Origin: Roseivirga sp. BDSF3-8
GTDB taxonomy: Bacteria; Bacteroidota; Bacteroidia; Cytophagales; Cyclobacteriaceae
Reading direction: 5' to 3'
Assembly: GCF_041449215.1 (NCBI RefSeq)
Contig: NZ_JBGNFV010000001.1
Location: 620,001-684,000 of the forward strand
DNA length: 64,000 bases
Every line of letters begins with the position of its first letter. The stretch's first letter is position 1. Position numbers and translations under genes: made by a program. The notes under the pieces were generated by a model that ran no database searches, was not told where the DNA came from, and saw nothing but the letters and a program-made list of their open reading frames with translations. This document shows positions 30,170 through 32,642 of this stretch, in pieces.

Positions 30170-30358
30170 ATGAAAAGAAAGACCCTATCTCTTGAAAAGC
30201 TGAAAGTGCAGAGTTTTACCACCACTCAAAAAGTAAAAGGCGGCTTTGGTGAATACACCTTTGATGTAGAAGAATGCGGCGAAAGCAATAATGCCATGTG
30301 CACTTTTGACGATTGTCTCAGCCAGGGACCCGGCTGCAGTCGCTACCAGGTTTGCTGA
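30170..30358 (+). CDS. Pinensin-type lanthipeptide precursor (candidate)
   Basis: 62-residue peptide. Residues 1-25 look like a Bacteroidota class I lanthipeptide leader: MKRK, then LSLEKLKVQSFTTT (the LKVQSF core typical of pinensin leaders) and a KGG end, where a double-Gly-type peptidase could cut. The remaining 37 residues hold five Cys (the last residue is Cys) and five Ser/Thr, a balance expected for lanthionine rings, with many acidic residues. No dehydratase, cyclase or peptidase-exporter is adjacent. A terminator follows directly, so it is its own transcript. An unmodified Cys-rich peptide is a possible alternative. Confidence 0.7.
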   Translation: MKRKTLSLEKLKVQSFTTTQKVKGGFGEYTFDVEECGESNNAMCTFDDCLSQGPGCSRYQVC

Positions 30359-30384
30359 ATCAAAATGAAAATTTTTGATGGTAT

Positions 30385-30410
30385 AGGCAGGAAGTTTTCC
30401 TGTCTTTTTT
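30385..30410 (+). terminator. Terminator after the first lanthipeptide-like gene
   Basis: 9-bp stem AGGCAGGAA / TTCCTGTCT (one G-U) with 3-nt loop and T-run. It lies inside the open frame that extends 5' of the esterase gene, which supports the later esterase start at 30422. Confidence 0.82.
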
Positions 30411-30421
30411 ATTTACACTAT

Positions 30422-31144
30422 ATGAAAACATTGAAACTGAGCCTGGCCCTGTTATTTCTATTGATGTGGGGATGCCAGGAAGAAAGTAACCGCAAGACCA
30501 GCAGCTCTGAGAATAATACCAGCGGACAGTTGACCGAAGCAGATAATGAGCCTGCCCCTGAGCAAGGCAGTAAGGTTATTCTCTTCTTCGGCAATAGCCT
30601 GACCGCCGGTTATGGAGTAGAAACAGAAGAGGCTTTCCCGGCACTCATACAAGACAGGCTGGACAGCCTGGGCCTCAACTATAAAACCGTAAATGCAGGA
30701 GTAAGCGGAGAAACCACGGCAGGGGGGCTGGCCAGAATTGACTGGGTACTGGAGCGGTATGAGCCCGATATTTTCGTACTTGAGTTGGGAGCTAATGATG
30801 GCCTAAGAGGCCAGTCACTGGAGCAGGCCGAGCAGAATCTGCAGGGAATAATAGACCAGGTGAAAGAAACCTACCCCGGCGTAAAGCTGGTGTTAGCAGG
30901 GATGATGATCCCCCCTAACTACGGGCAGGATTACGCAGAAAAATTCAGGGCTATCTATAGCAGACTGGCACAGCAAAATAACTTATCTCTGATTCCCTTT
31001 CTGCTCGATGGGGTAGGCGGAAACCCTGAGCTCAACCAGGATGATGGCATCCACCCCACCGTGGCAGGACACAAGGTAGTAGCACAGAATGTCTGGAAAA
31101 TTCTGGAACCCATTGTGGAGCAAAAAGTAGAGGCTGTCCCCTGA
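30422..31144 (+). CDS. TesA-like SGNH esterase/arylesterase lipoprotein
   Basis: 240 residues from ATG 30422. The lipobox is LMWGC; a linker follows, and from about residue 55 an SGNH hydrolase. Block I is ILFFGNSLTAGYG (Asn instead of the Asp of GDSL, as often in this subgroup, with the nucleophile Ser kept), block II the Gly in NAGVSGETTAGG, block III LELGANDGLRG, block V DDGIHPTVAGH with catalytic Asp and His. This is the TesA/arylesterase group (thioesterase, protease I, lysophospholipase L1). As a lipoprotein it would act on lipids at the membrane, and its position divergent to a YbbA/YbbP-like exporter suggests shared handling of lysolipids or esters. Confidence 0.88.
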   Translation: MKTLKLSLALLFLLMWGCQEESNRKTSSSENNTSGQLTEADNEPAPEQGSKVILFFGNSLTAGYGVETEEAFPALIQDRLDSLGLNYKTVNAGVSGETTAGGLARIDWVLERYEPDIFVLELGANDGLRGQSLEQAEQNLQGIIDQVKETYPGVKLVLAGMMIPPNYGQDYAEKFRAIYSRLAQQNNLSLIPFLLDGVGGNPELNQDDGIHPTVAGHKVVAQNVWKILEPIVEQKVEAVP

Positions 31145-31214
31145 TTTTGGTTAGGTATTTAAATCAGAATAGTCCTATATTTCAGATTGAATACATAACC
31201 ATGTTCAATCGACT

Positions 31215-31760
31215 ATGAATAAATTACTACTACCTATGCTGCTGGTGATGGCTGTAGCCTGCGGGTCGCCAGAAAAGAAAGAACAGCCTAAAGAAGAAGT
31301 AACAGAGACCACCCCCGATATGGAGGGTGATGGTGAGGAGATGGAGCCCGCCCGTACTGTGGAATTACCTGAAGACATCAACCAGGATGCCACATTTGCA
31401 TTTGAAAATGACTCCGTAAGGCAAGAGATCACCGTTACTGTGGAGGGCGCCGATGATATTTACCTGCTTTACACAGTTCGTGACCCCGAGCTTACCTGTG
31501 CACTTCGTTATGAAGGCGGAGCCTCTGCACTATCCGGCCAGCCTGAGCTCATGGAAATGGCAAAGGATATGGAAGTCAGTTTCCCTGCCAAAAAATACAT
31601 TTATCAGGATGAGCTATGTTCTCTGCTTATTTTCCTCGCAGATGATCGCTCACAGGTTGAGATTGAGGCCTTAGATTGTGAAAAAAGGTACCACAATTGC
31701 CCTGCATGGTCTTTAGCCCCTTTAACAAGGGTAACGGATAATAGTAATCCTGCTCAATAG
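31215..31760 (+). CDS. Small lipoprotein of unknown function
   Basis: 181 residues. The signal peptide (MNKLLLPMLLVMAVAC) ends in a lipobox; a long acidic, disordered linker with many Glu and Pro follows (residues about 20-55), typical for surface lipoproteins that need to be held off the membrane. The C-terminal 120 residues form a strand-rich domain with four Cys (LTCALRYEG, ELCSLLIFL, ALDCEKRYHNCPAW), probably two disulfides. No family is recognised. It lies 70 bp downstream of the esterase gene and 30 bp upstream of the HExxH protein gene. Confidence 0.65.
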   Translation: MNKLLLPMLLVMAVACGSPEKKEQPKEEVTETTPDMEGDGEEMEPARTVELPEDINQDATFAFENDSVRQEITVTVEGADDIYLLYTVRDPELTCALRYEGGASALSGQPELMEMAKDMEVSFPAKKYIYQDELCSLLIFLADDRSQVEIEALDCEKRYHNCPAWSLAPLTRVTDNSNPAQ

Positions 31761-31790
31761 ACATTTATGTAAAAAGGGAGTTTATGCTAT

Positions 31791-32429
31791 GTGGTCAACC
31801 TATTTTCACATCGTAAACTCCCCTATGCTTATCCCCGCGGCATCCTTACGCCAGTAAGAGGCCGGTATTGGCACCTCACGCCAGTTATTATATATCTGCT
31901 AAGTGAGATTACGGAAGTCGAAAAACCTCTTTTACAGAAGACCCGGATACTTAAAAGAGCCTTTACGCTGCCTGTTCCCTGGTTTCGCAGTACCCGGGGA
32001 GGAGGGGCCATAGTGCTTGGCACACGTAAGAGACCCCTGATCATTTTTACCGAAAATTTCTTTCTCCGCGAAATATATGGCCGCAATGCCCGCTACTATG
32101 GCAATAGGCTTGACGTTTGGCTGGATATGCTTTCCCATGAGGTAGGGCATGTGGCCCAGCTTGACCGCATCGGGGCACCGGCAAAGTATGTGCTTTCGTT
32201 TGCCTGGCAGTATCTGCGTACCATGAGCCATAATAGAGCTCCCCTTGAAAAAGAAGCAGAAACCGGCAGAAAGAGGTACAGGAGTTTCGTACACCATATC
32301 AGAAACAAGGGCCTCATGAAGGAATACTACACCTTGCTTAGGGCTGACAGTGCAGACGAAGCGAAAATCAGCCAGATCAGGCAATGGATCACTGAGTGGA
32401 AAAAGGCGAGCCAAACGAAAAACGCCTGA
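31791..32429 (+). CDS. Putative zinc-metalloprotease-like protein with HExxH motif
   Basis: 212 residues from a GTG start; no in-frame ATG lies nearby. An N-terminal basic region (SHRKLPYAYPRGILTPVRGR) leads to WFRSTRGGGAIVLGTRKRPL, which looks like the strand before the active site in eDLP/DUF4157-type peptidases, then MLSHEVGHVAQLDRIG with HEVGH as possible zinc motif, and further down APLEKEAETG, where Glu could be the third ligand. Thus a small gluzincin-like peptidase is plausible, but the whole is not a confident family match, and no signal peptide is seen. The reading frame ends just ahead of a hairpin shared with the convergent lanthipeptide-like gene. Confidence 0.6.
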   Translation: MVNLFSHRKLPYAYPRGILTPVRGRYWHLTPVIIYLLSEITEVEKPLLQKTRILKRAFTLPVPWFRSTRGGGAIVLGTRKRPLIIFTENFFLREIYGRNARYYGNRLDVWLDMLSHEVGHVAQLDRIGAPAKYVLSFAWQYLRTMSHNRAPLEKEAETGRKRYRSFVHHIRNKGLMKEYYTLLRADSADEAKISQIRQWITEWKKASQTKNA

Positions 32430-32444
32430 CTCAAAAGCCAGGCG
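32415..32444 (-). terminator. Terminator for the second lanthipeptide-like gene
   Basis: On the minus strand, CGCCTG and CAGGCG pair over a 10-nt loop, followed by GTTTTTCG. It lies 10 bp after the stop of the precursor gene and overlaps the 3' end of the HExxH gene on the other strand. Confidence 0.6.
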
Positions 32445-32453
32445 CCTTACTAA

Positions 32454-32642
32454 TTAAACAGGGTATACCCCGGAATTACAATCAGTAGAATTACAGTAAT
32501 CAGAATAACACCCCGCATCTGAACAGTAATGATGACGGGCTGTATGGAACTGACACTCTCCTTTACCGCCCTTAGCCTGGACGTCTGTGGTAGGAAAACT
32601 GGTAAGCTTTAGCTGCTCCAGCTTAGTTGTTTTTCTTTTCAT
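32454..32642 (-). CDS. Second pinensin-type lanthipeptide precursor (candidate)
   Basis: 62 residues. The leader aligns residue by residue with that of the gene at 30170: MKRKT at the start, LEQLKLTSFPTT versus LEKLKVQSFTTT, and a KGG end one residue later. The 36-residue core is different in composition: five Cys, six Ser/Thr, many His, Tyr, Asn and few hydrophobics (for example GCYSDYCNSTDCNSG). The same leader with a freely varying core is the hallmark of RiPP precursor paralogues. It has its own terminator and an upstream 10-bp inverted repeat. No modification gene is adjacent. Confidence 0.7.
   Translation of the reverse strand: MKRKTTKLEQLKLTSFPTTDVQAKGGKGECQFHTARHHYCSDAGCYSDYCNSTDCNSGVYPV

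Follow-up and report, generated by a model that had tools for sequence, protein, structure and literature searches.

A genome-wide library of lanthipeptide precursors in Roseivirga sp. BDSF3-8, probably matured by one distant class I machinery

Introduction

A stretch of 64,000 nucleotides from the genome of Roseivirga sp. BDSF3-8 (the window, throughout this text) encodes two small peptides that resemble the precursors of lanthipeptides, which are ribosomally synthesized and post-translationally modified peptides (RiPPs). The original prediction, made from the window alone, described them as two orphan precursors of the pinensin type that would be modified in trans. The locus therefore raises the question of whether the two peptides stand alone, and of which enzymes in the genome could mature them. 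The answer proposed here is that the pair are probably two of about 155 lanthipeptide precursors, each with a gene of its own, that form a genome-wide library and are matured in trans by one distant class I machinery.

Two precursor genes with like leaders and unlike cores

The two peptides are encoded on opposite strands and are 62 amino acids long each, as translated from the open reading frames (ORFs) of the window. In the list below, support from a leader profile refers to hidden Markov models (HMMs) of the leader, or to NF038180, the NCBIfam pinensin-leader model.

30170..30358, + strand: precursor peptide 1 (62 amino acids and stop); ORF, leader HMMs, NF038180 below cut-off
30170..30244, + strand: leader of peptide 1 (25 amino acids, ends KGG); leader-family alignment
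30245..30355, + strand: core of peptide 1 (37 amino acids; 5 Cys, 5 Ser/Thr); sequence, with the cut presumably after GG
30382..30412, + strand: terminator-like hairpin and T-run 3' of peptide 1; hairpin search
32454..32642, - strand: precursor peptide 2 (62 amino acids and stop); ORF, leave-two-out leader HMM, no NCBIfam hit
32565..32642, - strand: leader of peptide 2 (26 amino acids, ends KGG); leader-family alignment
32457..32564, - strand: core of peptide 2 (36 amino acids; 5 Cys, 6 Ser/Thr); sequence, with a presumed cut site
32414..32447, - strand: terminator-like hairpin and T-run 3' of peptide 2; an overlapping alternative hairpin lies at 32433-32407

The leader of peptide 1 reads MKRKTLSLEKLKVQSFTTTQKVKGG and that of peptide 2 MKRKTTKLEQLKLTSFPTTDVQAKGG. 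Identity between the two peptides is 0.64 in the leaders and 0.28 in the cores, which bears out the predicted pairing of like leaders with unlike cores. A leader HMM built without either peptide recognizes both, peptide 1 at 32.2 bits (E 1.6e-8) and peptide 2 at 27.4 bits (E 5.1e-7), and these scores support the view that both are paralogous RiPP precursors with leaders of the pinensin-type family. A second model (A2), made from 58 other leaders with the window pair excluded, gives peptide 1 a score of 38.0 bits (E 1.5e-8). The cores give no ground for inferring antifungal activity.

A library of some 155 precursor genes

The genome comprises 6,098,086 bp in four contigs and is 99.5% complete. 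When it was searched with NF038180, at least 150 scored matches were found scattered over the chromosome-size contig C1 and over contig C2. At E <=5e-4, 75 matches were marked as over the cut-off, a few of them only jointly with in-frame neighbours. The same model matched 8 of 14 control genomes at E <=10, none over the cut-off, and none of the 14 at E <=5e-4. The A2 model again returned at least 150 matches in the Roseivirga genome.

To count genes rather than matches, a family HMM was scored on ATG-started ORFs of 30-140 amino acids in 80 stretches around hits plus the window, about 0.55 Mb in all. The scores are bimodal: 150 ORFs reach 14 bits or more, none lies between 10 and 14 bits, and the best non-family ORF in those stretches scores 8.5 bits with the full family HMM. 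Not one of 8121 shuffled ORFs reached 14 bits (maximum 12.0). Twenty further stretches (395 kb, five of them set on remaining hits) yielded exactly five more members, those at the five hits, and no unknown ones. In total there are 155 precursor genes, of which 152 are on C1 and three on C2, spread over 90 sites. The count is of ORFs in sampled stretches; for the unsampled 5 Mb the rule of three allows about 40 more at most, and some members scoring 14-17 bits (for example C1:5775310) are doubtful. The sites occur on both strands (76 of the first 150 genes are on the plus strand), and some of the precursors are arranged in tandem arrays. Further leader copies are thus plentiful, and the window peptides are not the two orphans they had been taken for. 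Judged by leader sequence, the library as a whole belongs with the pinensin-type leader family.

The family leader consensus is MKKKKLSLKDLKVKSFVTSEKKKTIKGG. Mean identity over 3000 sampled pairs is 0.48 for the leader and 0.271 for the core, against 0.255 for core versus shuffled core (1500 pairs); the cores are about as unlike one another as shuffled sequence. All 146 parsed cores are unique. Four of the 150 ORFs have no recognizable GG/AG and were excluded from the core counts, and five of the 146 parsed leaders could not be anchored on SF. The leader ends in GG in 122 cases and in AG in 24, and SF stands at the anchor in 141 of 146, frequencies that are partly by construction since both motifs served for parsing. 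Among the SF-anchored leaders, T at +3, L at -7 and L at -4 each occur in 89%. Cys makes up 12.2% and Thr 10.3% of core residues, with only two Cys in all leaders combined. Two Cys-free, Thr/Ser-rich members, at C1:3365529-3365738 and C1:3353902-3354048, would, if they are substrates of LanB, become dehydrated peptides without rings.

A terminator-like hairpin follows within 150 nt in 97 of 148 genes, at a median of 23 nt past the stop (controls, 23/148 and 6/148). With a hairpin after about two thirds of the genes, most of them appear to be small, separate transcription units. The DNA upstream of the genes is rich in A and T, with A at positions -14 to -12 and T at position -1, and the Bacteroidota motif TAnnTTTG occurs in 16 of 148 upstream pieces versus 9 of 148 downstream pieces.

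The only LanB locus and its cyclase

A genome-wide search for a LanB dehydratase, a LanC cyclase and a C39-peptidase exporter, suggested together with the original prediction, found a complete cluster of all three, so that the refuting circumstance named there, a genome devoid of lanthionine biosynthesis genes, does not apply. The lanthionine enzymes are therefore encoded elsewhere in the genome and modification, if it takes place at all, would be in trans, as had been proposed. The cluster (C1:2590426-2601036, 1.94 Mb from the window) is the sole LanB locus of the genome and contains genes for a C39-peptidase ABC exporter, HlyD, a LanB glutamylation protein, a LanB elimination protein and LanC. 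The LanB is split over adjacent ORFs, a glutamylation protein of 1003 amino acids (PF04738) and an elimination protein of 353 amino acids (PF14028), whose solved relatives, at low identity, are 6ec7 and 5wa3/NisB, respectively. Both parts of a split class I dehydratase are thus encoded, while the window pair themselves do not cluster with them. One precursor gene, on the opposite strand, sits between the LanB elimination gene and the LanC gene, and only 5 of the 155 precursors lie within 20 kb of the cluster.

The LanC protein (672 amino acids; L059:15519-17537) bears CHG...CHG signatures. Its WCHG and CHG motifs, whose residues we take to be zinc ligands, align to LicM2 and hardly vary among 18 homologues. 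In other genomes the full-length homologues run to about 615-715 amino acids. The predicted structure of the Fulvivirga imtechensis homologue (predicted local distance difference test, pLDDT, 90.8) consists of a LanC barrel and a C-terminal extension, the latter reaching pLDDT 86.8 when predicted alone. In structural comparison (VIA-align Z) the extension matches 3dee (11.4), TglHI (10.7), which presumably carries a RiPP recognition element (RRE), the TbiB1-leader complex (8.1) and PqqD (8.0), as well as the matching domains of TbtB (7.9), MibB (7.9) and NisB (6.8). Foldseek likewise pairs it with 3dee (E 3.8e-4) and PqqD 5sxy (E 0.039), and the Pfam PqqD family matches 3 of 18 members of the LanC family at E <=1 (best 1.7e-5). 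The structure 3DEE is described as an RRE (PMC12710340). Because of the matches to 3dee and TglHI, the lower-scoring RiPP matches and the Pfam PqqD hits, we read the extension as RRE-like: in the model it resembles a PqqD/RRE-like winged-helix fold, one that the Roseivirga LanC would have by homology only. Enzymes with distant substrates would need just such a leader-binding domain on the cyclase, though the binding itself is putative. LanC proteins with a C-terminal PqqD/RRE-like domain are seen at L175:12018-13970 and in homologues (A3), and in the parts of the literature consulted we found no description of such a fusion.

A second C39-ABC exporter occurs at C1:272250-281611 (L062:251-9612), together with a 654-amino-acid protein that has a C39-like part and weak thioredoxin/DsbC similarity. 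About five small ORFs beside it share a leader of the form MKKF...AR, unlike that of the library.

The leader follows LanB across genomes

In 59 genomes (the Roseivirga genome and 58 relatives), a leader over the cut-off was found in 8 of 10 genomes with LanB and in 0 of 49 without it (Fisher p 2e-8, in a test that ignores kinship); without the Roseivirga genome the figures are 7/9 versus 0/49 (p 1e-7). A scan for split LanB found 36 loci in other genomes, and 19 of these have a leader of the same family no more than about 8 kb from LanB, several of the contigs being short. In the A2 search at least 44 leaders were counted in a Cyclobacteriaceae metagenome-assembled genome, at least 32 in F. 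imtechensis, at least 25 in G021, at least 22 each in F. kasyanovii and G018, and at least 16 in F. marina, on several contigs each (draft assemblies). G034 has six leaders among the matches listed, adjoining its LanB. No leader was found by A2 in four LanB-less controls and two genomes with another LanB. Two pairs of genomes with identical rows, G018 and G059 as well as G036 and G069, are evidently the same genomes. The genome of the window is extreme in leader number among the genomes searched.

Contigs assigned by binning to Aminicenantes, KSB1, Acidobacteria and Phycisphaerae (L160, L164, L170, L172) carry homologous LanB genes as well, which could reflect horizontal transfer or misbinning.

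Proposed route from precursor to product

Each precursor would be transcribed singly or in a short tandem array, ending at its terminator. The shared leader would be bound by the leader-recognition domains of the genome's only class I machinery, after which Ser and Thr of the core would be dehydrated by the two LanB proteins, one for glutamylation and one for elimination, and LanC, with its own C-terminal RRE-like domain, would close thioether rings with Cys. The C39-ABC/HlyD exporter would then cut after GG or AG and export the product. Recognition through the leader would leave the cores free to vary, and some 150 products could come from one machine. Leader binding, dehydration, ring closure, export and any bioactivity are what we infer from the genes. 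In its widest form, our proposal is that one class I machine, a split LanB together with a LanC that carries a leader-binding domain of its own, turns the scattered set of about 155 precursors into about 150 different lanthipeptides, that this natural combinatorial library evolved independently of the prochlorosins and with another class of enzymes, and that libraries of 16-44 members recur in several relatives. We lean towards this fuller version, with less assurance than towards the trans-acting library itself.

Several observations weigh against these proposals. At the level of the window, peptide 1 scores only 19.6 bits with NF038180, under its curated cut-off of 24, and peptide 2 has neither an NF038180 match nor any other NCBIfam hit. 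The name pinensin is therefore withheld from both peptides, and of the predicted label "pinensin-type" only the leader family stands. Among the cores, 4 of 146 are free of Cys (two Ser/Thr-rich ones and two stubs), and the spacing of Ser/Thr and Cys shows no more than a weak pattern (enrichment at -6, -5 and +2), which related cores inflate. Simple inspection of 148 upstream pieces showed no shared promoter motif or site for a common regulator. The extension of LanC also matches winged-helix proteins from outside the RiPPs (methyltransferases, Z 8.3-9.2; NO66, Z 5.6-6.8), and the RRE-like domain is present too in relatives with few precursors. With respect to the comparison across genomes, besides the kinship ignored by the Fisher test, G010 and G056 have LanB and no leader; their LanB proteins (E ~1e-118 and 2e-120) score far better and are apparently a different LanB. 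In 11 of the 18 other distinct genomes in which A2 found one leader or more and which have the same LanB or a related one, the matches listed include only one to three leaders; Adhaeribacter, Rhodocytophaga, Xanthovirga, F. sediminis, Algoriphagus terrigena and Pedobacter sp. KBW06 belong to these 11. The library is therefore not a necessary companion of the enzymes. Finally, the case is a genomic one: the genes, leaders that are conserved and cores that are not, terminator-like hairpins, a single LanB locus, and LanB co-occurring with the leader and, in relatives, lying near it.

Other readings of the library

The alternative that survives best is that two machines share the library, with a class V-like locus dehydrating some or all of the precursors by phosphorylation and elimination rather than glutamylation. 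This second locus (C1:4163792-4167069; L064:3892-7169) has genes for an APH kinase with weak LxmK similarity, a HopA1 protein and a LanC, intact and in a row, and precursors lie 3-5 kb from it (C1:4158849, 4170083). In this it is like class V systems, with their LxmK kinase and HopA1-type LxmY, but it has a LanC where those have LxmX. However, HopA1 was found in only 2 of the 25 genomes searched, that of Roseivirga and the leader-less G010 (E 7.6e-6), and not in any of the six other bearers of the library that were searched (G018, G021, G060, G061, G065, G071). In relatives HopA1 is thus unassociated with the library, and the leader tracks LanB rather than the class V-like locus. We regard a library shared in this way as unlikely. 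The locus may nevertheless serve some members in this genome, which counts against a single machine, without explaining the library.

Somewhat less probable again is that the peptides leave through the C39 transporter as linear or disulfide-bonded, microcin-like products that lack thioether rings. The concentration of Cys in the cores and its near absence from the leaders would suit such peptides, as would the presence of a C39 exporter, the ring chemistry being deduced from genes. The association of the leader with LanB, including its proximity to split-LanB clusters in other genomes, argues for lanthipeptides instead, and disulfides are ill-suited to the two Thr/Ser-rich, Cys-free cores and to a Thr content of 10.3%.

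The library could also consist mostly of decaying or selfish copies, a leader gene spread with mobile elements and seldom functional. An IS200-like element has 25 copies in the genome; eight of these are no more than 400 bp from a precursor, six of them about 40-65 bp past its stop, and a few members of the library are stubs. Yet the likeness in long-range matches between precursor loci is confined to the leader in 95 of 164 pieces, 97 of 148 genes have a terminator-like hairpin, and stubs account for only two of 146 cores; we consider this reading improbable. The other 69 pieces extend further, and the longest of these, bar one paralogous pair, are either IS200-like or short repeats between genes. 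Of 10 sampled IS200-like copies, 6 have a precursor within 300 bp, an interval that covers 1.9% of the genome, versus 1.0 expected under a uniform null, which ignores intergenic insertion of such elements and was applied to a query taken from a precursor flank; we therefore make no claim on dispersal by transposition. The least probable alternative is that the peptides are RiPPs modified by radical SAM enzymes, like those of TIGR04149, which in Bacteroidota have somewhat similar GG leaders. In its favour, TIGR04149 matches 1 of 10 scanned members, weakly (15.3 versus a cut-off of 25 bits). Against it, the pinensin leader model matches all ten of this hand-chosen, non-random set, six over the cut-off, and a search of the five LanB-cluster proteins found no radical SAM families.

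Two repeats deserve mention in their own right. The IS200-like element (Y1 transposase; 25 genome copies, e.g. L077:3170-3431) could favour precursor terminators as insertion sites or spread together with them. An intergenic repeat of about 200 bp, possibly similar to a miniature inverted-repeat transposable element (C1:4028799, 951446, 3374090, 487298 and others), lies within 300 bp of a precursor in 5 of 14 sampled pieces.

Neighbouring genes in the window

Beside peptide 1 lie two genes that provide context only:

29335..30036, - strand: YbbA-like ATPase, divergent from tesA; the pair is conserved in relatives without the peptide
30422..31144, + strand: TesA-like SGNH/GDSL hydrolase, probable lipoprotein; 30422 is the probable true start

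The original prediction had named a YbbA/YbbP-like exporter and an HExxH protein as possible partners of the peptides. The divergent ybbA-tesA pair is kept in the tesA loci of 10 of 12 relatives, one of the other two being at a contig end, and a precursor was found in none of them. On this ground the genes next door, the lipoprotein gene included, were rejected as evidence of partners: ybbA and tesA are read as old neighbours, and the proposed exporter partner is most likely an old housekeeping neighbour. The peptide gene looks as if it came into the gap between them. Nothing was found to link the HExxH protein with the peptides, its neighbourhood in relatives not having been compared. The start of the tesA ORF as listed (30365) overlaps the terminator of peptide 1 (region 30365-30421); relatives align from about residue 17 at the earliest, so that the true start is probably 30422.

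Relation to known systems and significance

The closest parallel in layout is provided by the prochlorosins and synechococsins of marine picocyanobacteria (ProcA-ProcM, SyncA-SyncM), in which one promiscuous LanM is described as serving up to 83 scattered precursors per strain (PMC10783134). As there, the Roseivirga precursors are scattered, with a conserved leader ending in GG and variable cores, and one enzyme set would serve them all. The prochlorosins differ in having a class II LanM and precursors of the Nif11 family, in contrast to a class I split LanB, a LanC with an RRE-like domain and a short pinensin-type leader; no Nif11 family was among the NCBIfam hits of the two window peptides up to E 1. 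At about 155 genes the library is nearly twice the prochlorosin maximum of 83 given in that source. On the best reading, this would be a dispersed class I library matured in trans that works as the prochlorosins do, though through a different class of enzyme and on a larger set of precursors.

In enzyme type, a close known system is that of the pinensins of Chitinophaga, which are class I products of a split LanB (PMC7268733). The likeness lies in the split LanB and in the leader family, as judged by NF038180 and not by the pinensin sequence itself. The pinensin precursor is described as part of the biosynthetic gene cluster (PMC9248904), whereas here all but 5 of 155 precursors are more than 20 kb from the enzymes and the cores are mutually unrelated. 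Class I leaders of Bacteroidota often end in GG with a C39 protease nearby (PMC7268733), and the leader reported here resembles such GG-ending leaders in outline.

Precedents for the chemistry exist. LanB/LanC pairs of Bacteroidota class I systems form thioether rings in Escherichia coli (PMC9993889), and dehydrate and cyclize when given suitable tRNA-Glu/GluRS (PMC9993889, PMC9576775). Runella RuiABC and Chryseobacterium ChmABC are likewise class I systems of Bacteroidota, and are reported with proven dehydration and rings (PMC9993889, PMC9576775); they differ in having their precursors inside the cluster, and are likened here by description, not by homology of LanB or leader. For a dispersed library of class I precursors, we found no report in our searches of the open-licence PMC literature.

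The finding also bears on genome mining. In Fulvivirga kasyanovii 48LL, antiSMASH is reported to find 16 clusters, two of them RiPP (PMC12565237), versus at least 22 precursors found by leader search in another strain of that species, which suggests that cluster-based mining overlooks many peptides. For building libraries of ringed peptides, the fusion of LanC with an RRE-like domain could prove a convenient tool. If the proposal is true, the principle of one enzyme and many peptides is not peculiar to the class II ProcM and arose again with a tRNA-dependent LanB. The library would then offer a second natural experiment on how defined rings form in unrelated cores, on what such libraries are for, and on how precursor genes spread.

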